A stretch of 64,000 nt of DNA from the NCBI RefSeq assembly GCF_030410395.1, contig NZ_JAUHHF010000012.1:1-64000 (forward strand), given 5' to 3'. Of the stretch, positions 6,531-21,319 are shown piece after piece (positions within the stretch are counted from its first letter, which is position 1; each line of letters begins with the position of its first letter). A program made the translations under genes and the position numbers. A model generated the notes under the pieces. The model made no database searches. It was not told the origin of the DNA and saw only the letters and a list, made by a program, of their open reading frames with translations. The stretch comes from Zwartia panacis. GTDB taxonomy: Bacteria; Pseudomonadota; Gammaproteobacteria; Burkholderiales; Burkholderiaceae_B.

Positions 6531-8330
6531 TCAAGTTTTTGAGTGTGACTCAGTAGTCTTTACAATATCGGCATATTTCGTAATCCGTTGCACTCTTCCG
6601 TTATCGATTTCGATAATTTGAGAACAGTTTTGCAGAGTGGTGATCCGATGTGCGACGCTAATTATTGTTAAGTCTGTTGATAATGCTTCTAAAGCAGACA
6701 TTACGCTCGCCTCAGTTTCGTTATCGAGCGCGCTTGTTGCCTCATCAAAGATGATCACGTCAGCTTTTTTGTAAAGAGCACGGGCAATGCCAATTCTTTG
6801 CCGTTGCCCGCCAGAAAGCCTAACACCTCGTTCGCCAACCATCGTGTTGTAACCATCGGGCCACGATTCTATCGAAGTTGCTAATTGTGCCTGACGGGCA
6901 CTTAGCCTTACCCGTTCGATATCTATTTGATCTAAAGGAACACCAAACGCGATATTAGCCGCTACCGAGGTATCCGCCAGAAAAATGACTTGAGGGACGT
7001 GGGCGATATGGGCTTGCCAAGAACGGTAATTTGAGGCGGTAATCGCTTGATTATCAATACGCAGCTCTCCCTCCGTTGGAATCAGGAGACCCATTAATAC
7101 ATCCAATATGGTGCTCTTTCCGCTTCCTGTCGAACCGATAATACCTACCCTTGCTCCCTTGGGTATAGCGAAACTAATACCTTCTAATACATTTTTATTT
7201 TGAGTGGGATAACGAAAAGATACTGTGTTGAGCACGATTTGTTTATCAAACGGTAGCGGCTTAGGAGTAATCTCATCCGCATGAGCAGGTAGCGGCTGCT
7301 CCAACAGCTCTATCGCATCTTCAAGCAAAGCTTGACCGCCTTTCATGCCAGACCAACTTGAATAAGACTGCTGCAAGATAGGAAGTAGACGCTGCGCACC
7401 CAAGGCTAAGGCACCTAGCAAAGGAACAGCGCCCGCGACACCCTCGGCCCGACTCGCGAGTGCATACGCGAGAAAAGCGATCAACACAATGCCGAGCGCT
7501 TCAATTGCAAAGCGTGGGCTATTACTGATAATACTGATATTCGCTTGGGATGCACGAAAAGACATATCTGCTTTTTTATAAATATCACAATAAACATTTT
7601 GTGTACCATCAAGTAAGACGTCTCTAATCCCACCCAAACCCTCTTGTAAAGCTTTAATAACCTGGGCAGAAGATTCGTTCAGTCGGTCGCCCTCGCGTTT
7701 AAGCTTTTTCTTAACAAAGAAAATGACGCACCCGTAAATAGCACCAAACCCCACAAATGCGGCCAATGCGACAGTGGGTTGTAAAGCGATCAAAGTTGAA
7801 ATGATCGCAACGAGCATCAAAAATGAGCTTGCTAACACCAAAACAGGCACAATGGCACAATGCACTACATTACTCGCCTTGCCTGAAATGCCCGCGATTA
7901 ACTCGCTACTATTCCGAGAGATTTGCACCATGTAGGGCTGATAGAGGCTGCGTCGGTAAATGCTTATGCTAAGGTCGGCACCCACGCTATGACTAATCCG
8001 CGTCTGCGCCCAAAGTAATAACAACCTTAGGCCACCTGAGATCACGGCAGCGGCAGAAAATAGTATTGTCAAAGGCAACAAAAGATTTTGGGGGTCTGTA
8101 ATATTTGCATATTGCGCAACTGCGCGAACAAAATCAACTTCAAATAACCTCTCAGGCGCGGTTAGAACAGCCAAAAAGGGCAGTATTGCCCCGATACTGA
8201 TCATTTCCGCTAACGAGCAAACGATCATTAGTAAAAACAGTACTGAAAACTGCTTTCGCCTTTTGTCAGTAATATGCGGCCACAAGCGCTTTAAAAGGTT
8301 TAATAATGACGTGTTGGTAGGATTTAGCAT
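6531..8330 (-). CDS. ABC exporter with fused permease and ATPase (PglK/MsbA type), putative glycolipid flippase
   Basis: Half-transporter of 599 residues: six predicted membrane helices in about 1-330, then a nucleotide-binding domain with Walker A GSTGSGKST (399-407), Q-loop VPQ (about 446), signature LSGGQ (505-509), Walker B VIIFDE (525-530) and the switch histidine in VAHR (561). The closest functional models are PglK/WlaB and MsbA, which move lipid-linked oligosaccharides or lipid A across the inner membrane as homodimers. ATG 8330 is preferred, with AGGG 9 bases upstream; a TTG 12 codons earlier lacks a site. It stands alone on the minus strand between two plus-strand blocks. A second exporter of this type is encoded at 44626-46470. 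Confidence 0.9.
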   Translation of the reverse strand: MLNPTNTSLLNLLKRLWPHITDKRRKQFSVLFLLMIVCSLAEMISIGAILPFLAVLTAPERLFEVDFVRAVAQYANITDPQNLLLPLTILFSAAAVISGGLRLLLLWAQTRISHSVGADLSISIYRRSLYQPYMVQISRNSSELIAGISGKASNVVHCAIVPVLVLASSFLMLVAIISTLIALQPTVALAAFVGFGAIYGCVIFFVKKKLKREGDRLNESSAQVIKALQEGLGGIRDVLLDGTQNVYCDIYKKADMSFRASQANISIISNSPRFAIEALGIVLIAFLAYALASRAEGVAGAVPLLGALALGAQRLLPILQQSYSSWSGMKGGQALLEDAIELLEQPLPAHADEITPKPLPFDKQIVLNTVSFRYPTQNKNVLEGISFAIPKGARVGIIGSTGSGKSTILDVLMGLLIPTEGELRIDNQAITASNYRSWQAHIAHVPQVIFLADTSVAANIAFGVPLDQIDIERVRLSARQAQLATSIESWPDGYNTMVGERGVRLSGGQRQRIGIARALYKKADVIIFDEATSALDNETEASVMSALEALSTDLTIISVAHRITTLQNCSQIIEIDNGRVQRITKYADIVKTTESHSKT

Positions 8331-8431
8331 TACACAGTGCCCTAGGTTTAGCGCAGACTCAAGCAAAAGACAATCATTGCTTGATGGGTTTAGTTTAACA
8401 GGCGAGTTCCGCCAACGTTAATGGCATCACA
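8331..8431. promoter_or_regulatory. divergent intergenic region
   Basis: A 101-base spacer between the divergently read ABC exporter and DUF6492 genes. By position it should carry start signals for both units, but I could not identify convincing -35/-10 hexamers on either strand. Confidence 0.35.
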
Positions 8432-9358
8432 ATGCAAATAAATTTTTTTACCGTTTCTTTGCCGGAAAACATACCGACGCTAAAAGTATCACTTGAGCAG
8501 CTCAATAATTTTTATCAGTCGCCACCCTTTACTATTATCTGCCCTGACGTTTCAGCGCATCTATTTATTGAAAGCCTTGCTAAATTTGATAATATTCAAA
8601 TTTTGTGTGAATCTTCGATATTAGACCTATCGGATTTTAAGAAGCATGTTAGTCAATATCTCACGTCGCTTAATTCCCCCACTGAGATACATAATCGACT
8701 CAGTTGGTATTATCAGCAAGCATTAAAACTAGCTTTTTTAATGAGCCAACCACTCAGATGTTTTCCCCTCGTCATGTGGGATGCCGATACAATTCCAGTA
8801 GAAAAGATTAGGTTTTTTAATAATAATCATTCAATCTTGTACGGATCGGCACTTGAGTTTCATCTCCCATACTTTCAAACGATGCAGAAAATATACGGAG
8901 TGCTTCCCCAAAGATTTTCGGCTTTCACGATTCAATTTTTCACATGTACCGATCAAGAATTGCTATGTCTTCGTGAGCGTCTCCAGCAATTCCTGCCACA
9001 ACCAGAAAACGCTTCGGTCGCTGAATGGGTGTCCCAAATTATCATTCAAAGTGTTTACAATACTCATCAGACTTTTGAAGGATCTCTTTTCAGCGAGCAA
9101 GAACTTGTAGGTCTGTCTCACATGTTAGCGAACGGTGAACGACAGCGCACCCTGACTTACCTTCGTTGGGGATTTAGTGGTCTCGTCAGTTCTAGGCAAA
9201 TGCGTTTAATAAAACTATTAGGTTTTAAACATATTACCTTTGAAAATGTAGAAAATATTTTATATAAAAAACAAGGCTGGATCTCTTTATTAATTTTTAT
9301 TGCCAAACAGATTTATCGACAAAGGTTGCGACCCCTTATCGCGCCAATATCCAGGTAA
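8432..9358 (+). CDS. DUF6492 family protein, putative GT-A-type glycosyltransferase
   Basis: Protein of 308 residues matching DUF6492 features: FFTVSLP at the start, a central SWYYQQALKLAFL block (about 90-102), and a DxD-like MWDADTIPV (about 113-121), which would bind a metal-nucleotide-sugar complex in a GT-A fold. It lacks a signal peptide; a hydrophobic, basic tail may touch the membrane. First of six closely spaced plus-strand genes (8432-14129) that look like one glycan-building unit. The family has no established reaction that I know of, so the glycosyltransferase role is inferred from the DxD and context. Confidence 0.7.
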   Translation: MQINFFTVSLPENIPTLKVSLEQLNNFYQSPPFTIICPDVSAHLFIESLAKFDNIQILCESSILDLSDFKKHVSQYLTSLNSPTEIHNRLSWYYQQALKLAFLMSQPLRCFPLVMWDADTIPVEKIRFFNNNHSILYGSALEFHLPYFQTMQKIYGVLPQRFSAFTIQFFTCTDQELLCLRERLQQFLPQPENASVAEWVSQIIIQSVYNTHQTFEGSLFSEQELVGLSHMLANGERQRTLTYLRWGFSGLVSSRQMRLIKLLGFKHITFENVENILYKKQGWISLLIFIAKQIYRQRLRPLIAPISR

Positions 9359-9362
9359 CTAG

Positions 9363-10349
9363 ATGTCTCAGACCCGTAATATGTTGTTGACGCGAATTAA
9401 GAGTCTCTTAAAAAAAATCCCGTTTCTGATTGCTATTAAACGGCACCTCTGGCTGGGCACGTACAAGTTGGCGAAAATAGTCTTTGCCGTCCTCAGGTCA
9501 GCAATTTGGGCGCCGCTTTTTCGTACTCACACACTACGTGAATTGGTGTTCGACACAACACCGACTTCGGATTTGTTGTTGGCGAATACTGGAAAAGAGG
9601 TCTTTGTGATTTCAGCACAAGACCGATCCATCAGCAGAATGATCTATTCGCGAGGAGTCAAAGACTTTGAGAGCGTAGAGCGTGTCGTTAAACTACTGGC
9701 ACCAACACATCAAAAAAAGCTGCTTATTGATATTGGTGCCAATATTGGTACGATTTGCATACCCGCCGTGAAACGCGAGTTTTTTAAATATGCAATCGCA
9801 GTCGAGCCAGAGCCGTTCAATTTCTCTTTGCTACAAACCAATATCCACCTCAATGGATTGGCTAAAGAAATTACCACTCACAATATTGCGCTTGGAGAAA
9901 GTGCAAATCAAGAAATACTTTTTGAATTGTCAGAGACCAATTTCGGTGATCATCGGATACGAACTTCAGATAAAGCAGGACTCCATGGCGAAAGCACAAG
10001 AAAAACTGTTTCAGTAAAGTCTGAACGCTTTGACGATTTATTTCCTAACCTAGACCCAAATGAGACCTTGATTTGGATAGATACCCAAGGGTACGAGGGT
10101 TATATCTTAGCGGGGGCAAGTTTGAATTTAGTAAAGAATATTCCCCTTGTTGTCGAGTTTTGGCCTTATGGAATGAATCGAAGCGGCTCGTTTCCAGCAT
10201 TGAAAGCTTCTTTACTCGGCAAAGGATACACTTCATTTTATGATCTTGAGACCCAAGACGGTCCGTTGCCTTTGACAGAAGAAAACCTTCAGAATTTGTA
10301 TACCAAAATTGGTATCACGAGTGGCTTTACTGACCTGTTGATTATTTAA
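9363..10349 (+). CDS. FkbM family methyltransferase
   Basis: Methyltransferase of 328 residues. SAM motif I LIDIGANIGT lies at about 120-129, the acidic AVEPEPFNF follows, and DTQGYEGYILAGA, characteristic of FkbM enzymes, comes near 238-250. FkbM proteins usually O-methylate hydroxyls on sugars or secondary metabolites. An N-terminal segment rich in basic and hydrophobic residues (about 1-60) precedes the catalytic domain and may be membrane-associated. It begins four bases after the DUF6492 gene and lies two bases before the next, so co-expression is expected. Likely target: a sugar of the glycan made here (inference). Confidence 0.85.
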   Translation: MSQTRNMLLTRIKSLLKKIPFLIAIKRHLWLGTYKLAKIVFAVLRSAIWAPLFRTHTLRELVFDTTPTSDLLLANTGKEVFVISAQDRSISRMIYSRGVKDFESVERVVKLLAPTHQKKLLIDIGANIGTICIPAVKREFFKYAIAVEPEPFNFSLLQTNIHLNGLAKEITTHNIALGESANQEILFELSETNFGDHRIRTSDKAGLHGESTRKTVSVKSERFDDLFPNLDPNETLIWIDTQGYEGYILAGASLNLVKNIPLVVEFWPYGMNRSGSFPALKASLLGKGYTSFYDLETQDGPLPLTEENLQNLYTKIGITSGFTDLLII

Positions 10350-10351
10350 TC

Positions 10352-11389
10352 ATGCCACTAACTGACGCTTGCGCGATCGTTAAAGACGCCTCCGCTTTCA
10401 GCTTACCTAGCGATAAGACACCACCATTAGTTTTTGTTTGGCTGGGGGATAAGTTTCCTGGCTGGCTTTCTACTGCCTTAGCCATGAACAGTAAGCTTTG
10501 CGGAATCTCGTGCATTTTGATTTCGAGCAAATTGGCAGGACGTCTGCCGTCAGTTGAGCAGCAAATATTTATTGAAGATTTTTATACGCCACCGCGTGAA
10601 TTGAATGTACAAATGGGAAACGTGAGCCCAAAGTTTCGGGACGGCTTTTGGATTAAGACAACCGAGCGTTTTTTTGTCCTTGAACAATTTATGGACAAAT
10701 TCTCTTGCCCAGCCTTGTTTCACGCAGAACTCGACAATCTTATCTTTGATGTGTCGTCGCTGGCACCAAAATTAGACTCTTTCGGGAAAGGGGTCTTTTG
10801 TCCTCGCGACGCGTTGGATCGTGGCATTGCTTCACTTGTTTACATCAACGAAGTAGATGCCTTGAGAGATATGCTCTTACAGCTATCGCAGAACTCTACA
10901 CTTTTTGCGAACGACATGGTGCTCTTGGGTCACATGCTCCAATATTCAACTAAGTTTTTTTCGCTACCAACTGAGAATGCATTTAATAAAGGAACGTGCC
11001 CAGGCTGGTCTTCACTAAGCGTTGATAAGCTCGGGGGGATCTTTGATGCTGCTGCATTAGGTCAGTATCTTTTTGGAATTGATCCAAAAAATAGTGGCGT
11101 GTTTTTATTTAACTTTTTTGAAAACGAAAATAAGGGTTGCAACTTAAGTCAGCTTAAATTCACCCCAAAGTTTGCAGATCGTAAGTTTTCAATTACGAAC
11201 CGAGAGCACGATCTTACTTTTAATGTCTACAATCTACACATTCATAGCAAGCAGTTTTTGCAGTTACAAGACCCGGGACGCTTTAATGACGTATTAAAAA
11301 AGGCAAACATGGGCGAAAAAAGCCTGATAGCCATTAATATTTTGCAAAATAGACTGTTTAAATCAATCCAATCCAGACTAATGCGATAG
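10352..11389 (+). CDS. unrecognised protein, possibly GT-A-like glycosyltransferase
   Basis: I do not recognise this 345-residue protein. It starts with a plausible beta-strand/loop opening (LVFVWLGDKFPGWLST, about 27-42), then FWIKTTERFFVLEQFM and LFHAELDNLIFDV, where the E-x-D pair could be a metal site like the DxD of GT-A enzymes. The middle (FCPRDALDRGIASLVYIN) also resembles the acceptor side of such folds. There is no signal peptide or clear membrane helix. Its place between an FkbM methyltransferase and another methyltransferase in a tight operon suggests a glycosyltransferase or sugar-modifying enzyme. The E-x-D reading is a guess. Confidence 0.55.
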   Translation: MPLTDACAIVKDASAFSLPSDKTPPLVFVWLGDKFPGWLSTALAMNSKLCGISCILISSKLAGRLPSVEQQIFIEDFYTPPRELNVQMGNVSPKFRDGFWIKTTERFFVLEQFMDKFSCPALFHAELDNLIFDVSSLAPKLDSFGKGVFCPRDALDRGIASLVYINEVDALRDMLLQLSQNSTLFANDMVLLGHMLQYSTKFFSLPTENAFNKGTCPGWSSLSVDKLGGIFDAAALGQYLFGIDPKNSGVFLFNFFENENKGCNLSQLKFTPKFADRKFSITNREHDLTFNVYNLHIHSKQFLQLQDPGRFNDVLKKANMGEKSLIAINILQNRLFKSIQSRLMR

Positions 11390-11471
11390 GCAACTGGTCG
11401 TTTTCACAGTTATTGAGTTAACACTATTTCTTACTTCGAGATTTATTATATTTAAAGGTTTAACTTATTTA

Positions 11472-12221
11472 ATGAACTCAGTTGCCATAAAAATCCTCCG
11501 ACGTCTCGGTGTTCTTGGTATCACAGCGTCACTGTTGCGTGGCAGAGTTTCTATCTCAGGCAGGCTCAAGGCTGACACTTATCCAAACATCAATGCCTTA
11601 ATCGACGAGCATTTTACAAAGTTTTCGACTCCCGATCATCCTTGTAAAGCGACGCTGACCCTGGCACTAGAGCTGTTAAATGAACAACCTGCTTTGATTG
11701 CCGAAACGGGCTCATCTGCCTGGGGCACTAACAGCACATTGCTGCTTGATTCTTATTGCAACAGTTTTGGTGGAGCCTGCTACAGCGTCGACATTAGACT
11801 TGAACCAATGCTTCAGTTGCAATACATCACATCGAACCGAACACGTATGTACTGTGATGACTCGGTCGCATTTTTAAAAAACCTAACATTACCCAGCGAT
11901 AGTGCAAAGATTGATCTGCTTTACCTCGACTCTTGGGACGTAAATTGGGCTGACCCGATGCCCAGTGCCATTCATGGTCTTAATGAGTTTTTAGCCGCAA
12001 TGCCCAAACTGAAGCCAGGCTCACTCGTTCTGATTGATGACACGCCCAGGGATCTAGCGAATGCGACAAAAGCCCATCCAGGTGTCGCCAGAGATTTTCA
12101 AGCATTTTTCGATAGATTCGGATTTGCACCGGGCAAAGGTGCTCTCGTGAAGCAAATGATCCAATCAACGGGTCGCGGCGAGGTACTAGCCCACAAATAT
12201 CAACTTTTACTTCGACTATGA
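11472..12221 (+). CDS. class I SAM-dependent methyltransferase-like protein
   Basis: Protein of 249 residues with a SAM-binding core: AETGSSAWGTNS (motif I, about 77-88), CYSVDIR (acidic motif II), CDDSVAFL, and IDLLYLDSWDVNW with LVLIDDTP near the C terminus, as in Methyltransf_24/TylF-like enzymes. Motif I is degenerate compared with the classical E/DxGxGxG. The gene follows an 82-base gap after the preceding one and shares ATGA with the fucosyltransferase downstream, so the two are translationally coupled. No good ribosome site is visible. It likely modifies a sugar before or after fucosylation (inference). Confidence 0.65.
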   Translation: MNSVAIKILRRLGVLGITASLLRGRVSISGRLKADTYPNINALIDEHFTKFSTPDHPCKATLTLALELLNEQPALIAETGSSAWGTNSTLLLDSYCNSFGGACYSVDIRLEPMLQLQYITSNRTRMYCDDSVAFLKNLTLPSDSAKIDLLYLDSWDVNWADPMPSAIHGLNEFLAAMPKLKPGSLVLIDDTPRDLANATKAHPGVARDFQAFFDRFGFAPGKGALVKQMIQSTGRGEVLAHKYQLLLRL

Positions 12222-13102
12222 AGGTAATTCCTCGTATTCTTGGTGGGCTAGGTAACCAGCTGTTCTCTTATTGCGCAGCGCGGCGCTTAGCTCTCGCAAA
12301 TAACGCTGAGCTCGTGCTGGATAACGTAAGTGGATTTCGCTACGATCTCGAATATCAGCAGAAGTACCAGTTAGATCACTTTCATATACAGGCCCGTTGT
12401 GCCACTGCTGCCGAGCGACTTGAACCGTTCTCACGCATTCGCCGTTATATCAAGAGAAGAGTCAGTCGCAAATCTTCGTTTGAAGAGCGTCATTATATTC
12501 AACAAGAAAGTAACGATTTTGAACCTAGACTATTACAAGTGAAGTTGTCGAATACTGTTTACCTTGAGGGATACTGGCAAAGTGAGGGCTACTTCAAGGA
12601 TATTGAGCCAATCATTCGATCAGACCTGAAAATTATTTCGCCTAATGACTCTGTTAATTTGTGCATGGCAGCGCAAATACAAAACTGCGTTGCAGTAGCT
12701 GTTCACGTCAGATTTTTCGATGCTCCGACCAGTTTGAGCGGCAACAATGCACCTCATGAATACTACAACAAAGCAATTTCCATGATTGAGGCGTTTGTAC
12801 CGAATGCGCATTACTTTTTATTCTCTGACAATCCAACCGCGGCGCGAGCGTTGATCGCATTGCCCGATACAAAAATCACGCTCGTCGCACATAATCGCGG
12901 TGACGCTAACGCATATGCTGACCTATGGTTGATGTCGCTTTGCAAGCATTTCATTATCGCCAACAGCACTTTTAGTTGGTGGGGTGCCTGGCTCGCTGAG
13001 CACGAGAATAAAAAGATTTTTGCCCCAAGTTTACAAATTCGTGAGGGTAAAACTGCATGGGGGTTTAATGGACTGTTGCCAGCCAGCTGGATAAAAGTCT
13101 AG
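12218..13102 (+). CDS. alpha-1,2-fucosyltransferase-like enzyme (GT11)
   Basis: GT11 family protein of 294 residues. The N terminus carries GGLGNQLF (9-16), the GDP-fucose-binding motif I appears as HVRFFD (163-168, normally HxRRxD), and NSTFSWWGAWL (249-259) is the conserved C-terminal motif. GT11 enzymes add L-fucose from GDP-L-fucose, usually alpha-1,2 to galactose. The gene overlaps the methyltransferase-like gene by ATGA. A GDP-L-fucose synthase is encoded at 46512-47498, consistent with fucose in the glycan, but no GDP-mannose dehydratase is in the window. The second arginine of HxRRxD is Phe here, so donor specificity should be confirmed. Confidence 0.85.
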   Translation: MKVIPRILGGLGNQLFSYCAARRLALANNAELVLDNVSGFRYDLEYQQKYQLDHFHIQARCATAAERLEPFSRIRRYIKRRVSRKSSFEERHYIQQESNDFEPRLLQVKLSNTVYLEGYWQSEGYFKDIEPIIRSDLKIISPNDSVNLCMAAQIQNCVAVAVHVRFFDAPTSLSGNNAPHEYYNKAISMIEAFVPNAHYFLFSDNPTAARALIALPDTKITLVAHNRGDANAYADLWLMSLCKHFIIANSTFSWWGAWLAEHENKKIFAPSLQIREGKTAWGFNGLLPASWIKV

Positions 13103-13127
13103 GCCCTCTATCGAGTTACATATCATT

Positions 13128-14129
13128 ATGCCCAGAATCTCGATCATTATGGCGTGTCACAACGCTGAACAATTTGTTGGCGAAGCAATAGAGAGCGTTC
13201 TTTCTCAAACCTTTACCGATTTTGAATTGATATTTATCGACGACTGTTCGATAGATCAAAGTTTGGCGATTGCGCGCTCGGTTGCCAAAGGAGACGTTCG
13301 GGTAAAAATTCACGCGAACCTGCAAAACGTTGGCGCAAGTGCTACGCGAAACCTAGCGTTCGGTTTAGCTACAGGTGAGTGGTTGGCAGTTTTGGATGCT
13401 GACGACGTGTTTATGCCAACAAAGTTAGAAAAACAAATCGCTGCCATCGATAATGGCGATCCCCAACTGGTGTTGCTAGGCACAGGTTGCCACATCATTG
13501 ATCGAAATAACAAAATCCAATCAATCCATCTATATCCAACAAGTTCGGCAGCACTAAAAAATCGCCTGATTGGACACGTACCTTTTCCACCGCACTCGTC
13601 ACTCATGTACCGGGCTTCGACCGTCAAAGCGCTCCATGGATTTAATGTACGGTTTTCACATGCAGAGGACTTAGATCTTTGGCTTCGTTTACGCAATCAC
13701 GGGGCATTTGCCTGCCTCAAAGAGCCTCTAATTAAATATCGTATCCATGAAAATAATGCATCAAGCTTTGCTGAAAGAAAAGGCTATATTCATTTAGACT
13801 ACGCGACGGCAGCTAGCGTATGCGAATTACTCAGAAATCAAGGCCTGCTTGATCCATCCAGCTCGAAGGATGAAACTATTTGGAATGACTTTTTAGCGTA
13901 CATCAGCCATCAAGTTAAGCTTTCAAAAATGATTGAATATAGAGATTGGAAAAAATCATGGCGCTCTGCCGAGTCTATGTATAGACCAAAGTCAGTTCAA
14001 TACTTAAGTTTACTTAAACAAGCTTTGATTCATCCATTTAATATGTTGAGACTGATGCGGGAGCACATCGATGGCAATCAGGTCGCATCGACCAGTTTCA
14101 AAAACTGGGTACGCAAATCCCTGCAATGA
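13128..14129 (+). CDS. family 2 glycosyltransferase
   Basis: GT2 of 333 residues, GT-A fold. It opens with ISIIMACHNAEQFVGEAIES, then FIDDCSID (about 38-45) and the metal-binding VLDADDVF (about 87-94). The HAEDLDLWLRL block near 178-188 contains the usual catalytic acid (ED) of inverting enzymes. There is no membrane helix; the protein should be cytoplasmic at the inner membrane face. It closes the 8432-14129 plus-strand group; the 210-base spacer that follows separates it from the CDP-sugar operon. Acceptor and sugar unknown. Confidence 0.88.
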   Translation: MPRISIIMACHNAEQFVGEAIESVLSQTFTDFELIFIDDCSIDQSLAIARSVAKGDVRVKIHANLQNVGASATRNLAFGLATGEWLAVLDADDVFMPTKLEKQIAAIDNGDPQLVLLGTGCHIIDRNNKIQSIHLYPTSSAALKNRLIGHVPFPPHSSLMYRASTVKALHGFNVRFSHAEDLDLWLRLRNHGAFACLKEPLIKYRIHENNASSFAERKGYIHLDYATAASVCELLRNQGLLDPSSSKDETIWNDFLAYISHQVKLSKMIEYRDWKKSWRSAESMYRPKSVQYLSLLKQALIHPFNMLRLMREHIDGNQVASTSFKNWVRKSLQ

Positions 14130-14339: not shown

Positions 14340-15350
14340 ATGATTGATACAGAAAAATTTACGATTACTCTGAACAATGGTGTTGCATTCACCTGCAAGA
14401 AGAACGTTAGCCTTTTGGATGCCGCCGCTGCTGCTGGTGTGGCATTTCCGTATAGCTGTCGCACTGGAAGATGCAGCAGTTGTAAATGCAAAGTGCTTTC
14501 AGGTGATACAGATTGCTTAACTGCTGAGCTAGGGTTAACCGAACAGGAAGTATCAAGTGGTTGGGTCCTGGCTTGCGTCAGAACAGCACTCTCAGACCTG
14601 ATGCTTGTTGCGAATACCGTTGAGGATTTCGACATCCCAGCACCTCAGACCTTGCCTTGTCGAATCCATGATATTAAGAACTTGGCTCCGGACGTATTGA
14701 GTGTGAAATTAAGATTGCCACCATCTGCAGATTTCAAATTTCTCCCAGGGCAATACGTAGATGTCATCGGTCCCGGAGGTAAGCGCCGAAGTTATTCATT
14801 AGCAAACTCCTACGCAACTGACAAGATTCTTGAGTTACATATTCGGTCAGTGAATGATGGACTTTTTAGTGCTTATTGGTTTGAAACGGCGAAAGTTAAT
14901 GATCTCTTACGCCTTCATGGCCCATCAGGAACATTTTTTTTACGAGGAGTTAAGGGAAAGGAGCTTGTATTTTTGGCAACGGGAACGGGAATTGCACCCG
15001 TCACGTCGATTTTGGGAGGTTTATATGAGTTGCCCCCCGAAGATTGGCCAGAAACTGTGAGCGTTTACTGGGGAGGGCGATCCAGTGCTGACCTTTATTT
15101 TAATCTCGATTTTCAATTCAAATTAATTAGCTTTATCCCCGTTTTATCAAGACCTGAATCTTCTTGGGTAGGGGAAGTAGGATATGTTCAGGATGTATTG
15201 CTCAGTAAGCGTAGCGATCTATCTAATATGATGGTGTACGCATGTGGAAGTAACGCAATGATTAAATCAGCGGAAGCTAAACTTAGTGCAGCTGGCCTGC
15301 GTGAAGGATGTTTTATGTCGGATGCATTTGTGTGCTCAGCTAGGCCTTAA
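14340..15350 (+). CDS. ascD: CDP-6-deoxy-L-threo-D-glycero-4-hexulose-3-dehydrase reductase (E3)
   Basis: Iron-sulfur flavoprotein of 336 residues that passes electrons from NADH to the E1 dehydrase during C3 deoxygenation of CDP-sugars. The N terminus is a plant-type [2Fe-2S] ferredoxin with C40, C45, C48 and C79 in the canonical Cx4Cx2C...C spacing. It is followed by an FAD-binding RRSYS (149-153) and an NAD-binding ATGTGIAP (213-220). It is equivalent to AscD/DdhD/RfbI. It is the first gene of a seven-gene run on the plus strand whose next three genes complete the CDP-4-keto-3,6-dideoxyglucose pathway. An AAGGGA site lies 13 bases before the start, slightly far. Assignment is firm from motifs and context. 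Confidence 0.92.
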
Positions 15351-15364
15351 TTCAAAGGATACTT

Positions 15365-16138
15365 ATGAAAGCTGTAATTCTTGCGGGCGGTCTTGGAACA
15401 AGATTAAGCGAAGAAACCTCTGCTCGCCCGAAGCCAATGGTTGAAATTGGCGGCAAGCCTATCCTTTGGCACATTATGAAAATGTACTCACAGCATGGGG
15501 TAAATGACTTCGTGATTTGCTGTGGTTATAAGGGATATGTAATAAAGGAATATTTTGCTAACTATTTTCTTCATACGTCCGATATAACCTTTGATATGCG
15601 TAACAATCGGATGGAAGTGCACCAAAAAAGAGCTGAACCTTGGAACATCACATTAGTCGATACAGGCGATGAATCGATGACTGGTGGACGTCTCCGCCGT
15701 GTGGCCGAATACGTTCGCGAAGATGACGCATTTTGTTTTACGTATGGCGATGGAGTAAGTGACGTTGACATCACTTCCTTAATTGGATTTCACAAGAATC
15801 ATGGAAAGTCAGCGACCTTAACTGCAACTTTTCCGCCGGGACGCTTCGGAGCATTGGATATCACTGATAACCAAGTTAAACGTTTTATGGAAAAACCGAA
15901 AGGTGATGGAGGCATGATCAATGGTGGCTTCTTCGTACTTTCACCTCGAGTATTAGATTATCTAGAGAACGATGCAACTGTTTGGGAGCAACAACCTCTC
16001 CAGCGCTTAGCAACTGGCGGAGAGCTGATGGCGTTTGAGCATCACGGCTTTTGGCAGCCTATGGATACCCTGCGAGATAAAACCTATTTGGAAGAACTTT
16101 GGGCTACTGGTAGTGCGCCATGGAAGACATGGGAATGA
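15365..16138 (+). CDS. rfbF: glucose-1-phosphate cytidylyltransferase
   Basis: Cytidylyltransferase of 257 residues that makes CDP-glucose from CTP and glucose-1-phosphate, the entry step to CDP-dideoxy sugars. It shows the nucleotidyltransferase signature [20 protein letters not shown] (6-25), [12 protein letters not shown] after it, and [11 protein letters not shown] further on. The length matches RfbF/DdhA/AscA. A good AAGGA site lies at 15355-15359. The coding sequence ends in an ATGA overlap with rfbG, so the two are translationally coupled. Cytoplasmic. Very confident. Confidence 0.95.
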
Positions 16139-17208
16139 ACATCGTTGCACAAACCGATCCAGCATTTTGGCGGGAAAAAAGGGTTTTATTAACTGGTCAT
16201 ACAGGCTTTAAAGGAAGTTGGTTGAGCCTATGGCTTCAATCCTTCGGAGTTATCTTGCGTGGCATTGCACTTCCACCTCCGACGGTTCCGTCACTCTTTG
16301 AATCCGCTCGAGTATACGAAGGAATGGAACATCGTATTGTTGATATACGTGATTTTTATGCTGTGAAGTCAGAGTTTGATGAGTTCAAACCTGAAATCGT
16401 GATTCATATGGCTGCTCAGCCGTTGGTGAGAACGTCCTATCAGCAGCCAATCGAGACCTATGCTACGAATGTGATGGGTACAGTACACGTCCTCGAGGCA
16501 GCACGACACTGCCGTTCCGTAAAAGCCATTGTCAACATCACTACAGATAAATGCTACGAGAACCGTGAATGGATATGGGGGTATCGCGAGAACGAGCCTA
16601 TGGGGGGGCATGATCCCTACTCAAGTAGCAAGGGATGCGCGGAGTTGATAAGCGGAGCCTACCGCAGTTCTTTCCTCAAGGATGCTGGCATTGCAATGGC
16701 CACTGCACGCGCAGGGAACGTAATTGGGGGGGGAGACTGGGCGGCTGATAGACTAGTGCCTGACATTCTGCTTTCACTCATTAAAAACGAGCCTGTATTA
16801 ATCCGTAATCCCCACGCTATTCGCCCCTGGCAGCACGTGCTTGAACCACTTTCCGGTTATTTACTGCTAGCAGAGCGACTTTACAGCGATGGGCAAAGAG
16901 ATGCAGAAGGTTGGAATTTTGGCCCTCTCGATGAGGACGCGCGTCCTGTTCAGTGGATTGTTGACTATCTTTGTGAAAAGTGGAGTAAAGATGCAACTTG
17001 GAAGCTACAACCTGGCGATCATCCTCATGAGGCGAACTTTCTGAAATTGGATATTTCAAAAGCTCGACAGCGTCTTCATTGGGCTCCTCGATGGTCACTT
17101 GAGGCCGCACTAGACCACATTATTGACTGGCAGCAAGCTTGGCTATCAAAGGATGATGTCCGCGCAGTTTGTCTCAATCAAATTTCACTTTACGGATCAA
17201 AGCAATGA
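16135..17208 (+). CDS. rfbG: CDP-glucose 4,6-dehydratase
   Basis: Extended SDR of 357 residues that converts CDP-glucose into CDP-4-keto-6-deoxyglucose. The NAD motif is GHTGFKG (21-27), TTDK lies at 136-139, and the catalytic pair is Tyr162 and Lys166 in YSSSK. Equivalent to RfbG/DdhB/AscB. The start at 16135 shares ATGA with the end of rfbF; an in-frame ATG five codons upstream is less likely. The end overlaps the start of rfbH by four bases. These unbroken overlaps show a single translationally coupled operon. Confidence 0.95.
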
Positions 17209-18557
17209 CGACAACCTATGTGAACTTTCAGCCTCAGCTTGATAAGCTTCGTAACCAAATAACAGAGCTAGTTCAACAATACGCAGACATTGCTTACGCC
17301 CCTAAGACTTTCATCCCGGGAGAGAGCGTTGTGCCAGTATCTGGTAAGGTGATTGGCGCAAAAGAGCTGCAGCTTATGGTGGAAGCATCGCTAGACGGCT
17401 GGCTCACTACGGGTCGATTCAACGAAATGTTCGAGCAACGATTAGCAAAATTTTTAGGGATCAAGCACCTGATCACGGTCAATTCCGGCTCATCGGCTAA
17501 TCTTGTTGCTTTCTCTACGCTAACCAGCCCAAAGCTAGGCGATCGCGCGATTAAGCAAGGTGATGAAGTGATTGGCGTTGCCGCCGGCTTTCCTACAACA
17601 GTTAATCCAATCATTCAGTTCGGGGCAGTGCCTGTCTTCGTCGATGTGGAGCTGGGGACGCATAACATTGATGCAACCAAAATCGAAGCGGCTATCACAA
17701 AGAAAACCAAGGCTATTATGTTAGCCCATAGCCTCGGTAACCCGTTCAATTTAGATGTGGTCACTGCGCTCTGCAAAAAGCACAACCTGTGGTTGGTCGA
17801 AGACTGCTGTGATGCCTTGGGTGCGACTTACAATGGGCAATTGGTCGGAACCTTTGGAGATATTGCTACATTGAGTTTCTATCCCGCTCACCATATCACC
17901 ATGGGCGAAGGTGGGGCGGTGTTTACTAACAACGCCGAGTTGAAACTAATTGCAGAGTCTTTCCGGGATTGGGGTCGCGATTGTTACTGCCCACCAGGCA
18001 AGGATAACACCTGCAATAACCGCTTTTGTTGGACAAAGAAAGAACTGGGCGGAGACCTTCCTGACGGCTATGACCACAAATATACCTATAGTCATTTGGG
18101 TTACAACCTTAAAATTACCGATATGCAGGCGGCCTGTGCATTTGCTCAGATGGATCGGTTAGAAGAATTTATCTCAAAACGCCGCGCCAATTTCACTTAC
18201 CTCAAGAGTCGTCTGATCAATGTCGGGCAGTTCCTTCACCTCCCGGAAACCACCCCAAAAAGCGAACCGTCTTGGTTTGGTTTCCCGCTGGTGCTTAAGG
18301 AAACGGCGGGTGTAAAGCGAACTGATCTGATAAACTTTCTGGATCAGAATAAGATCGGGACTCGCCTTCTTTTCGCAGGCAATCTAACTAAACAACCCTA
18401 CATGGCAGGCCGCAACTTCCGTGTCAGCGGCGAGCTCACCAACACCGACATTGTTATGAATAACACCTTCTGGTTAGGGACCTTCCCTGGGTTGGATGAG
18501 CCACAGCTGGATTACATCGCGGATAAGCTGGAAGAGTTCTTCGGTTTGAACTTCTGA
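17205..18557 (+). CDS. rfbH: CDP-6-deoxy-D-xylo-4-hexulose-3-dehydrase (E1), PMP/iron-sulfur dehydrase
   Basis: DegT/DnrJ-fold enzyme of 450 residues that removes the C3 hydroxyl of CDP-4-keto-6-deoxyglucose with E3. In [14 protein letters not shown] the lysine that holds PLP in aminotransferases is replaced by histidine (H229/H230), the hallmark of E1. Cysteines at about 201-202, 260, 262, 270 and 275 can supply the [2Fe-2S] cluster. The start at 17205 shares ATGA with rfbG; the frame is open 12 codons further upstream. The product, CDP-4-keto-3,6-dideoxyglucose, is the branch point to abequose, paratose, tyvelose, ascarylose or yersiniose, and here probably feeds the next three genes. Confidence 0.95.
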
Positions 18558-18560
18558 ACC

Positions 18561-19625
18561 ATGAGCGATAATCTTTTTTGGTTACGCCTCCCTATTGACG
18601 ATCTCGACCGGGTTTTCAACGCAGTTGGTCCAAGGTGGGAGCGATTACGCGGCCAGCGATTGCTGCTGACTGGAGGCACGGGTTTCATCGGCAAGTGGCT
18701 ACTCGCGACTTTCCTGCACGCGAACCAAAAACTGGCTCTGTCAGCACACATAGTTGTGCTTAGCCGGCGGCCAAAGGCATTTCTTGAAGAATTCCCCGAG
18801 CTTCACGACTCCAATGATGTTACTTGGCTGAGCGGCGATGTGCGAGATCTCGCGCCCGATGCCCCCGGTGACTGCAACTTCGCCATTCATGCAGCTACGG
18901 ACGTCGCCACAACATGCACTCCGACCGATATCTTGGACTCCTGCATAGCTGGTACGCGCCGTGTTTTGGACTCGATGGTACGCGGCGCAACTGCGCGACG
19001 CCTACTGCTATTAAGTTCTGGAGCTATATACGGGCGCACACCACCTGAATTATCAGTCATTCCTGAAGAGTGGGCTGGAGCACCCGATCCACTGACGCCT
19101 GCTTCCGCTTACGGTGAGGGAAAGCGTATAAGTGAAATGCTTTGTGCAATGGCGGCTTCAGAGATACCAAATTTGGAGGTCTCGATAGCAAGGTGCTTCG
19201 CGTTCGTTGGGCCGTATCTGCCCCTCGATAAGCATTTTGCGATTGGTAACTTTATTAGTGCTGCATTGCGTGGAGAGGACATCCGCATTCAGGGTGACGG
19301 CACGCCACTGCGGACATATCTGTATGCGTCAGACCTTGCACACTGGCTATGGGTGATGCTATTCGACGCGCCGAGCGGCCGAGCCTTTAATGTCGGCGGT
19401 GTCGAAAGGCTATCGATTGGTGCTTTGGCGCATCGCGTCAACCGCACTTTGGGTAGCAATGTCGAGGTTCGGATTACTCAGACGCCCTGTCCAAGTATTG
19501 CGCCGCAGGCCTATGTGCCGTCGGTCGATCGAATTGCCGTCGAACTAGGTCTGGTCCCATCAGTTGGCTTAGACGATGCCATACTGCGCACGGCCCGTTG
19601 GGTCGGCCAAACCTCACGAGACTGA
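18561..19625 (+). CDS. NAD(P)-dependent SDR reductase/epimerase of the CDP-dideoxysugar operon
   Basis: Extended SDR of 354 residues with GGTGFIG (38-44), LSSG (151-154) and the catalytic Tyr184/Lys188 in YGEGK. About 35 residues precede the cofactor motif, and the C-terminal half is the usual substrate-binding domain. Its position after RfbH equals that of the last-step reductases (abequose or paratose synthase, or YerF of yersiniose). It starts three bases after rfbH and ends one base before the transketolase gene. The G+C of this and the next two genes is visibly higher (35 of 60 bases in 18601-18660) than that of neighbouring blocks, a sign of separate origin. It could reduce a C4 ketone or the ketone of an added side chain; the sequence alone cannot tell. 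Confidence 0.8.
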   Translation: MSDNLFWLRLPIDDLDRVFNAVGPRWERLRGQRLLLTGGTGFIGKWLLATFLHANQKLALSAHIVVLSRRPKAFLEEFPELHDSNDVTWLSGDVRDLAPDAPGDCNFAIHAATDVATTCTPTDILDSCIAGTRRVLDSMVRGATARRLLLLSSGAIYGRTPPELSVIPEEWAGAPDPLTPASAYGEGKRISEMLCAMAASEIPNLEVSIARCFAFVGPYLPLDKHFAIGNFISAALRGEDIRIQGDGTPLRTYLYASDLAHWLWVMLFDAPSGRAFNVGGVERLSIGALAHRVNRTLGSNVEVRITQTPCPSIAPQAYVPSVDRIAVELGLVPSVGLDDAILRTARWVGQTSRD

Positions 19626-19626
19626 T

Positions 19627-20445
19627 ATGAATATTCTCAATATCGACAGCAGCGATTTAGCGCGCCGCATGCGTGTTCAGGCGCTGCAGATGGTACACCG
19701 CGCGAAGGCTTCCCATATCGGGTCAGCCCTCTCCATCTGCGACATCGTGGCCGTCCTGTACGCTCAAACACTCAAGCTAGCTCCACGTGAACCGACAGCA
19801 CCTTGGCGCGACCGCTTTATCTTGAGCAAAGGCCACGCTTGTGTAGCCGTATACGCTGCATTGGCAGAAACTGGCTTCTTTCCCATCAAGGATCTACTAA
19901 CCTACGGACAAGACCATTCGGCGCTAATGAACCATATCAGTCACAAAGTTTTGGGCGTTGAATTCTCGACTGGTTCGCTCGGCCATGGCTTACCCTTTGG
20001 TGCCGGCAAAGCACTGGCAGCAAAGCGGCTTAAACAGGACTGGCGCACCTTTGTACTACTTAGTGATGGTGAACTGGGAGAAGGATCGAACTGGGAGGCA
20101 ATGATGTTCGCGGCCCATCATCATCTGAATAACCTTGTTGCAATCGTCGATTACAACAAGTTACAGAGTCTGACGACTGTAGACAAGACGCTACGGATAG
20201 AGCCTCTGGCCGACAAGGCCCGCGCATTCGGCTGGGCTGTCCACGAAGTTGATGGCCACGACCATCGCGCATTACGAAAGCTTTTCTCACAGCTCAACTT
20301 GAAGGCTGGCAAGCCCTCCTTCTTGATTGCCCACACAATAAAGGGCAAGGGCGTCAGCTTTATGGAGAATAGCGTCGAATGGCATTACAAATCACCGTCA
20401 ACGGACCAGCTTGCTTTGGCACTGGGAGAGTTGAACCATGCGTAA
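19627..20445 (+). CDS. transketolase, N-terminal (thiamine-diphosphate-binding) subunit
   Basis: Protein of 272 residues equal to the PP domain of transketolase: H30 in SHIGSAL and H70 in SKGH (substrate/ThDP histidines), GSLGHGL (116-122), and the ThDP-magnesium motif running from SDGELGEGSNWEA (146-158) to VDYN (174-177). ATG 19627 lies one base after the SDR stop. It pairs with the following gene, which supplies the Pyr domain, so the active enzyme is a two-subunit transketolase. Its place inside a CDP-sugar operon, rather than near pentose-phosphate genes, suggests transfer of a two-carbon ketol unit to a sugar nucleotide (inference). G+C is high (38 of 60 bases in 19681-19740). Confidence 0.9.
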   Translation: MNILNIDSSDLARRMRVQALQMVHRAKASHIGSALSICDIVAVLYAQTLKLAPREPTAPWRDRFILSKGHACVAVYAALAETGFFPIKDLLTYGQDHSALMNHISHKVLGVEFSTGSLGHGLPFGAGKALAAKRLKQDWRTFVLLSDGELGEGSNWEAMMFAAHHHLNNLVAIVDYNKLQSLTTVDKTLRIEPLADKARAFGWAVHEVDGHDHRALRKLFSQLNLKAGKPSFLIAHTIKGKGVSFMENSVEWHYKSPSTDQLALALGELNHA

Positions 20446-21319
20446 TGCCTTCATTCAGGAGTTAGTGCTGCTAGCACGCCAGCATCCAAAGATCGCACTG
20501 ATCGTGGGCGACTTGGGCTATTCGGTTGTAGAGCCTTTCGCTGACGAATTCCCTCACCGCTTTATAAACGCAGGCGTCTCCGAGCAGAATATGACTGGAT
20601 TAGCCGCCGGCATGGCATCAGAGGGCTATCATGTCTTTACCTACTCAATTGCTAACTTTCCCACCTTCCGCTGCGCAGAGCAGATCCGCAACGATGTGGC
20701 GTATCACAATCTACCGGTAACAATAGTAGCGGTGGGAGGCGGTTTGGCCTACGGTGCTTTAGGCTACTCACATCATGCAGTGCAGGACTACGCGCTAATG
20801 CGCACGCTTCCTAACATGCTAATCGCTGCGCCGGGTGATCCGATGGAGACCCGAGCCTGTATGCGCTATCTGGTCGAGAATCCAGGTCCTTCATACCTCC
20901 GCTTGGGTAAAGCTGGAGAGCCGTGCTTCCATGAACAGGTACCTGCTGTACAACCAGGTTTGTGGCTTGAAGTTTCACCTGGCAGCTCAGAAGCAACGTT
21001 CTTGACAACCGGCGCTACGCTCGCCCATGCGATTGAGCTCCAGAAAAAAACAGAGGGCACGCGTCCTGCCGTGCATTCGCTGCCACTTTGGAGCATGGAG
21101 AATAAACCGATGCAGGCACAACAGGTCACACGCTATAAGTACGTAACGACAATGGAGGATCATCTTTACGATGGTGGTTTTGGTTCGTGGTTGCTCGAGG
21201 CGGTCGCTAAAAATGGTGGTCCAACGGAACGACTCAAGATTGAGGCGCTTGATCCCCGCGTCTGTGGCACTGTGGGATCCCAAGCAGTGCTTAATCTTTA
21301 TGGGGGGTTAAGCGAGTGA
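20438..21319 (+). CDS. transketolase, C-terminal (pyrimidine-binding) subunit
   Basis: Protein of 293 residues equal to the Pyr and C-terminal domains of transketolase. INAGVSEQNMTGLAAGMA (43-60) holds E49, the glutamate that activates the thiamine ring. YGALGYSHHAVQDYALMR follows, as in DXS/transketolase proteins that form the substrate channel. It overlaps the N-terminal subunit gene by eight bases, which ties the two subunits to equal production. It is the last gene of the operon; I see no clear hairpin/T-run terminator after its stop. Assignment as the partner subunit is firm; the physiological donor and acceptor are not known. Confidence 0.9.
   Translation: MRNAFIQELVLLARQHPKIALIVGDLGYSVVEPFADEFPHRFINAGVSEQNMTGLAAGMASEGYHVFTYSIANFPTFRCAEQIRNDVAYHNLPVTIVAVGGGLAYGALGYSHHAVQDYALMRTLPNMLIAAPGDPMETRACMRYLVENPGPSYLRLGKAGEPCFHEQVPAVQPGLWLEVSPGSSEATFLTTGATLAHAIELQKKTEGTRPAVHSLPLWSMENKPMQAQQVTRYKYVTTMEDHLYDGGFGSWLLEAVAKNGGPTERLKIEALDPRVCGTVGSQAVLNLYGGLSE

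Follow-up and report, generated by a model that had tools for sequence, protein, structure and literature searches.

A split transketolase in a CDP-3,6-dideoxyhexulose operon of Zwartia panacis: a candidate route to a C4-branched sugar

Introduction

What does a transketolase do in an operon for a cytidine diphosphate (CDP)-linked dideoxy sugar? The question is raised by positions 14,340 to 21,319 of a 64,000-nucleotide stretch of Zwartia panacis DNA (contig NZ_JAUHHF010000012.1, positions 1 to 64,000; hereafter the window). Here, an ascD-like gene and rfbF, rfbG and rfbH are followed by a short-chain dehydrogenase/reductase (SDR) gene and by two genes, tktN and tktC, for the halves of a split transketolase (TK). 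Two-carbon branching has so far been assigned in such surface-sugar operons to a different enzyme family than transketolase. From the comparisons below, we regard it as probable that the TK branches the CDP-sugar at C4 with a glycolyl unit and that the SDR then reduces the product.

The known parallel is the yersiniose A pathway of Yersinia pseudotuberculosis (DdhA-D, YerE, YerF). There, too, the genes lie within an O-antigen cluster, and CDP-4-keto-3,6-dideoxyglucose is branched at C4 by a thiamine diphosphate (ThDP) enzyme and then reduced. However, YerE belongs to the decarboxylase superfamily and uses pyruvate as donor (PMC12247030), whereas the window has a two-gene transketolase that keeps H100 (residues are numbered as in E. 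coli TktA).

The operon and its split transketolase

14340–15350, plus strand: ascD/ddhD-like E3, a [2Fe-2S]-FAD-NAD(P)H reductase, electron donor for RfbH (PF00111, PF00970, PF00175)
15365–16138, plus strand: rfbF, glucose-1-phosphate cytidylyltransferase (TIGR02623, 478 bits, cut-off 300)
16120–17208, plus strand: rfbG, CDP-glucose 4,6-dehydratase (TIGR02622, 498 bits, cut-off 278)
17205–18557, plus strand: rfbH, E1, a pyridoxal phosphate/[2Fe-2S] C-3 dehydratase that with AscD gives CDP-4-keto-3,6-dideoxyglucose (NF011936, 737 bits, cut-off 423)
18561–19625, plus strand: extended SDR, probable NADPH reductase of the side chain of a branched keto-sugar (PF01370; invariant S153, Y184, K188 and R69; occurs with ThDP carboligases)
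19627–20445, plus strand: tktN, ThDP-binding half of the split transketolase (PF00456, 142 bits vs 40 for E1_dh; H26, H66, H100 and H261 kept)
20438–21319, plus strand: tktC, pyrimidine-binding and C-terminal half of the split transketolase (PF02779, PF02780; E411 and H473 kept)
12218–14129, plus strand: two glycosyltransferases (GT11-like and GT2) directly upstream of the operon (PF01531, PF00535)

The sequence-only reading of this DNA had described the seven genes as tightly packed on one strand, and all seven were found at the claimed place on the plus strand. The spacing from ascD to tktC is +14, –19, –4, +3, +1 and –8 bases, with two starts re-read from the sequence. For rfbH, an ATG at 17205 forms an ATGA overlap with the rfbG stop (the open reading frame (ORF) caller starts at 17169); for tktN, an ATG at 19627 lies one base past the SDR stop (caller start 19576). 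As these ATGs exist, the caller's longer overlaps (–40 and –50) are unnecessary. RfbF, RfbG and RfbH exceed their curated NCBI equivalog cut-offs and share one operon with an E3-type reductase, which places the gene set in the CDP-3,6-dideoxyhexulose pathway. AscD, whose role as E3 we take from established pathway knowledge, was judged by its domains only (Fer2, FAD, NAD), as it passed no equivalog model.

By Pfam domains and residues, the last two genes belong to the transketolase superfamily in its split form, with Transketolase_N on one chain and the pyrimidine and C domains on the next. TktC scores 104 bits against the transketolase model vs 88 against the DXS model; a C half of the sister clade B described below (L064; L denotes loci) scores equally against both, at 126.7 bits each. 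The best PDB match of both halves is the split-gene transketolase of Carboxydothermus hydrogenoformans (6yak, 6yaj), which demonstrates that an active TK can be assembled from two such halves (PMC7661550). That enzyme differs from the window's in that it was assayed with aldehyde acceptors, and its THAGLTVGEDGASH stretch reads VGGGLAYGALGYSH in the window. An E1 alpha/beta (AviB-type) enzyme was ruled out by the domain scores of the N half. Since a full-length transketolase (937 bits, cut-off 682) sits on another contig of the same genome, the split TK is not the housekeeping enzyme. A YerE-type single chain with TPP_enzyme_N/M/C was not found in the window, which carries PF00456 and PF02779/PF02780 instead; the TPP_enzyme set is present in the swap-in proteins of L061 and L234. 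Six matches to YerE/acetolactate-synthase-type thiamine enzymes (hereafter DC-type) occur in the window genome, all at most 30% identical and all off contig C3.

Genes that travel with the SDR

Contigs were scanned with the aligned SDRs of the window and three congeners, which returned 63 loci; tblastn, on which the scan counts rest, places the SDR in 60. At least one of rfbF, rfbG and rfbH occurs in 57 of these 60 (rfbH in 41), and both TK halves occur in 44. Because the halves are separate genes in all 44, the gene set is neither chance nor a frameshift, and an assembly artefact was ruled out on the same count. The sequence-only reading had proposed a genome survey for co-occurrence of the split TK with rfbFGH as a check on its idea, and this co-occurrence indeed recurs: 30 of the 44 TK loci also carry rfbF, rfbG and rfbH. 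rfbF or rfbG is present in 43 of the 44, and a CDP-4-keto-hexose is therefore indicated in all; L047, the one locus with neither, lies on a 4.2 kb contig that starts within rfbH.

DC-type enzymes, searched with five seed proteins from SDR loci without TK, are present in 13 of the 60 loci, and a single locus (L039) has both enzymes. The four loci with neither (L048, L074, L077 and L080) are all on short contigs or close to the end of a contig. The five seeds are diverse, at 31–55% identity to one another. The best PDB match of the L041 seed is 8rph, JanthE, a YerE-like enzyme for aldehyde-ketone coupling that accepts ketones (PMC12188165); those of the L061 seed are acetolactate synthases, so that a YerE-like nature is not shown for all of the DC enzymes found.

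The two kinds of locus also differ in their companions. Genes for a NeuB-type synthase or an HpcH/HpaI-type aldolase (tblastn, at least 55 bits to four query proteins) accompany 10 of 13 DC loci vs 0 of 43 TK loci in the scan (with L039 taken as DC, and L077 and L080 left aside), and 11 of 22 DC vs 0 of 6 TK loci in the RfbH survey below. Such genes could build the keto-acid donor in the DC loci; a TK would need no dedicated donor gene, as ketose phosphates and pyruvate are central metabolites.

Side observations concern the loci in which rfbH is missing. A Sulfotransfer_3-like and APH-kinase-like gene pair precedes the SDR-split TK genes in L013-L015, L035, L050 and L067 (Pfam was run on the L013 and L035 copies), and only the kinase-like ORF of the pair was seen in L060. 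The two proteins may modify CDP-4-keto-6-deoxyglucose or its branched product.

Exchange of carboligase types

Three designs occur within Zwartia itself. The window has rfbFGH-SDR-split TK; three congeners have rfbFG and SDR-split TK, with RfbH absent genome-wide at E 1e-60; and in the congener G014, a DC enzyme comes after rfbFGH. On the SDR tree (59 rows; L077 and L080, which are cut off, excluded and L079 trimmed to 370 residues; bootstrap not fully settled), the TK/DC label requires at least four changes, and well supported branches alone force two for the DC group. L032, with TK, and L070, with DC, are sisters on this tree at support 99/98. The TK tree has long branches (L039, L032), and the deep clade order was therefore not relied on. 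Because split TK and DC enzyme swap beside the same SDR, C4 branching of a CDP-4-keto sugar is the best reading, and these gene comparisons give good support to the view that the split TK takes the place of YerE in rfbFG(H) loci. The gene next after the DC gene of L146, which its position alone marks as YerF, shows 25% identity to the SDR over 154 residues (E 5e-5).

The exchange may extend further in single loci. On the minus strand of L166 (6512-10502), rfbH is followed by an H100L-type split TK and then by a reductase that resembles the post-DC reductase of L142/L146, a likeness judged by eye from the N-termini and with "YerF" there named by position only. L166 is possibly a YerE-to-TK swap in place; as its split TK stands beside a DC-associated reductase, carboligase and reductase appear to have been exchanged independently. 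Two other arrangements were seen. L222 (2417-7008), of the window's class, has the order rfbF-rfbG-tktN-tktC-SDR with no rfbH seen, and its TktC shares 41% identity with that of the window. L184 holds two split TKs about 13 kb apart, a Leu-type one beside rfbFG and a His-type one 47% identical to the window TktN.

Active site of the split transketolase and choice of donor

Across 45 aligned TK rows, in which R358, S385 and R520 were not reliably alignable, E411, H26, H66, H473 and H261 are kept in 45/45. The acceptor-side pair H461/D469 is not retained: H461 is Gly in every row, and the D469 position is taken by Leu (33 rows), Gln (10), Ala (one) or Met (one); the window TktC has G100 and L108 at these two places. 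D469 changes improve the use of non-hydroxylated acceptors (PMC10787763). We considered the H461/D469 changes as a signature of ketone acceptance and dropped them; they are not diagnostic, as split TKs with no nearby rfb gene (e.g. L199/L223) carry them too.

H100 divides the family. Of the 45 rows, 27 have His, among them the window, where it is H103 of TktN if numbering starts at 19627. The 18 rows of clade B, a single branch of the TK tree with support 100/99, all have Leu. The histidine is kept in all 12 rows of the window group and in L188-L191. Leu is found in the survey TKs of L166 and L169 and in one of the two in L184. In a background set, made up of the loci that best matched the window tktC across 299 Pseudomonadota genomes, the split TKs have His in 29/29 (their C-half rows L190, L191, L195, L200, L204, L207, L211, L215 and L216 were left out). 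All 21 Leu-type TKs adjoin rfbF, rfbG or rfbH, in scans seeded with the SDR or RfbH that did not look for Leu-type TKs elsewhere. H100 is among the donor-binding residues, Phe stands at the same place in DXPS, and H100L in a Geobacillus TK is cited as raising pyruvate use (PMC7661550). H100L was also introduced to make the E. coli enzyme accept pyruvate, which is no donor for the wild type (PMC10787763). Since the window TK keeps H26, H66, H100, H261 and H473 while its sister clade has H100L, a ketol unit is favoured here, and the residues lend moderate support to glycolyl as the unit transferred. The sequence-only claim that the TK adds a ketol unit at C4 thus fares unevenly: the gene swaps bear out the split TK as a stand-in for YerE, and the five kept histidines back the glycolyl unit only moderately.

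The rival that bears most directly on the donor keeps the same C4 branching but has pyruvate supply an acetyl unit, giving yersiniose (4-C-1-hydroxyethyl) as with YerE. Its evidence comes from the sister clade. Paraburkholderia kururiensis KP23 (L065) carries rfbFGH-SDR-clade-B split TK at its only strong rfbG, and its eight DC-type matches all lie on other contigs; the two best are an acetolactate synthase and a glyoxylate carboligase, and the six weaker ones are untyped. Strain M130, once called B. brasilensis, belongs to P. kururiensis (PMC3622988), and a polysaccharide with yersiniose A is reported from B. brasiliensis (Mattos 2005, as cited in PMC4753412 and PMC4153317). The connection is at species level, with the locus seen in KP23. 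Yersiniose A in the species and a Leu-type TK in KP23 suggest that the acetyl branch of yersiniose is the work of the split TKs of clade B. By contrast, the window clade, with H100 kept, would add a glycolyl unit. For the window itself, whose TK lies in the other clade, a pyruvate donor is unlikely.

The wider scheme, that a ketone-accepting TK was recruited to surface-sugar operons in two lineages, is put forward tentatively. Where H100 is kept, as in the window, the product would be a glycolyl-branched and apparently undescribed 3,6-dideoxy-4-C-(1,2-dihydroxyethyl)hexose; where H100L occurs, as in the engineered enzymes, it would be yersiniose made in the absence of YerE.

The SDR and an RfbH survey seeded with neither SDR nor transketolase

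S153, Y184, K188 and R69 of the SDR are invariant in 59/59 rows, window included, and the TGGTGxxG motif is almost invariant, each of its positions being kept in 54 to 59 of the 59. The Arg that closes the second strand points to NADP(H) as cofactor, and the Tyr-Lys pair to a reductase or epimerase. By family scan the protein is a generic extended SDR, and its nearest solved relative by sequence, UDP-glucuronate decarboxylase, does not fix its reaction. That it reduces the side-chain ketone is what we infer from its company.

This leaves room for a second rival, also named in the sequence-only reading, in which the SDR is a C4 reductase making abequose, paratose or similar and the split TK serves another purpose, such as precursor supply. 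We searched for the RfbH family at the level of the class (369 genomes, 11 positive) and of the order (399 genomes, 50 positive), with the window genome part of both sets. The survey set comprises 61 RfbH places with the window copy left out, each with up to about 9 kb on either side (six stretches are shorter than 10 kb); DC was called from a tblastn match of at least 150 bits anywhere in the stretch. DC occurs in 22 of the 61 neighbourhoods, split TK in six, both in none and neither in 33, so that RfbH loci with no ThDP enzyme in reach are common, as the C4-reductase rival would have it. The generic character of the SDR also suits this rival, as do L144 and L148, where the SDR stands with a NeuB-type gene and no ThDP enzyme in reach. 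Against it, the SDR family (at least 185 bits, set at an observed gap, the next score being 146) tracks ThDP carboligases of two different superfamilies: a ThDP enzyme is present in 13 of 15 SDR-family RfbH loci vs 15 of 46 others (Fisher p = 3e-4, treating loci as independent, though some are close kin). Moreover, the genome already has a full-length TK. We therefore disfavour this alternative, which appears distinctly improbable.

In L154 (5840-11726), rfbH and a DC-type gene are followed by ribosomal-protein-like ORFs, which is either an odd neighbourhood or a chimeric contig.

Proposed pathway and the evidence against it

In the proposed pathway, RfbF, RfbG, RfbH and AscD would make CDP-4-keto-3,6-dideoxyglucose, as the family membership of the first three indicates. 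TktN and TktC would act together as one split transketolase: with a ketose (phosphate) or hydroxypyruvate as donor, they would transfer a two-carbon ketol (glycolyl) unit to the C4 ketone, and the product would be a tertiary alcohol with a 4-C-glycolyl branch. The gene swaps and the residues of the active site argue for this step. The SDR with NADPH would then reduce the side-chain ketone to CDP-3,6-dideoxy-4-C-(1,2-dihydroxyethyl)-hexose for a polysaccharide, which is suggested by its pairing with carboligases and by its residues. Overall, this would be the yersiniose pathway with its YerE-type carboligase replaced by a transketolase and its branch hydroxylated.

Several observations weigh against this proposal. 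The scan was seeded with the SDR, and its counts are conditioned on it. In the RfbH survey, the 33 loci with neither ThDP enzyme and the SDRs of L144 and L148 count here too, the DC match lies 4 to 8 kb from rfbH in L162, L164 and L173, and the lack of TK/DC co-occurrence (0 vs about 2 expected, 6 x 22 / 61) is weakly informative. The H461/D469 changes are shared with split TKs away from rfb genes. L188, L189 and L191 have a window-like TK beside rfb genes with no strong match to this SDR, and another reductase may therefore serve there. The G+C content is 0.45-0.48 from ascD to rfbH and 0.53-0.55 in the SDR, tktN and tktC genes (window 0.44), and the last three genes may therefore be of separate origin. 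Finally, rfbH is unseen in 10 of 14 loci of clade A2, three of them the congeners that lack RfbH genome-wide and seven judged within the stretch; the acceptor is therefore not always a 3-deoxy sugar.

This last point is also the basis of a third rival, in which the substrate of the split TK is another keto-sugar of the cluster, or in which the enzyme takes a two-carbon unit off instead of adding one. As SDR and TK occur in the congeners and in the seven further loci with no rfbH, 3-deoxygenation is not needed for the module. Yet the presence of rfbF or rfbG in all but one of the TK loci points to a CDP-4-keto-hexose. As for removal, a ketol donor of TK needs a C3 hydroxyl, and a 3-deoxy sugar has none. 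We consider this third rival highly improbable, and C4 glycolyl branching followed by SDR reduction remains our preferred reading.

Neighbouring genes

An Rfam scan gave no match above the Rfam thresholds. Upstream of the operon, an ABC-exporter-like gene (6534-8366) and a series of genes with methyltransferase-like and glycosyltransferase members (8432-13102) are common to the window and the congener G031 (L018), at 51-71% identity. Because these parts match G031, the glycan cluster around the operon is conserved, while the dideoxyhexose part differs.

Discussion

Split transketolases have been linked to keto-sugars before. For miharamycin and amipurimycin, a two-gene TK is proposed to put a hydroxyacetyl unit on a keto sugar, with YerE-like enzymes as the lipopolysaccharide solution; the same 2025 review counts 13 candidate split TKs, all from Streptomycetes and with function pending (PMC12247030). 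The window type differs in that it lies in polysaccharide CDP-sugar operons, mostly of Proteobacteria, whereas the former are from Streptomyces; the two are set apart by description only. The sequence-only reading had called a ketone-accepting transketolase new chemistry, a claim that we tone down because such a split TK is already proposed for these two compounds, which are nucleoside-type antibiotics.

AviB1/AviB2 and Pau11/Pau12 are likewise two-protein ThDP complexes, which attach a branch of two carbons to C4 of a deoxysugar (PMC4753412). Their donor is pyruvate, and they are of the E1 alpha/beta kind (PMC12247030), whereas the N half of the window enzyme favours Transketolase_N. Among open-licence papers, we found none linking TK to CDP-dideoxyhexose or O-antigen genes, the review PMC12247030 being alone on the topic, and no dihydroxyethyl-branched sugar (comma-containing names were searched with spaces, and matches were possibly missed).

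The use of ketone acceptors by transketolase was still an open proposal in the 2025 review (PMC12247030), and 44 candidate loci from many genera are now available for it. The acceptor, CDP-4-keto-3,6-dideoxyglucose, can be made by well-known enzymes. Our prediction of a glycolyl or an acetyl branch according to one residue, H100, names the sugars to seek in polysaccharides. If true, these enzymes would offer biocatalysts for dihydroxylated tertiary alcohols, and the chemistry of branched sugars would become readable from genomes.

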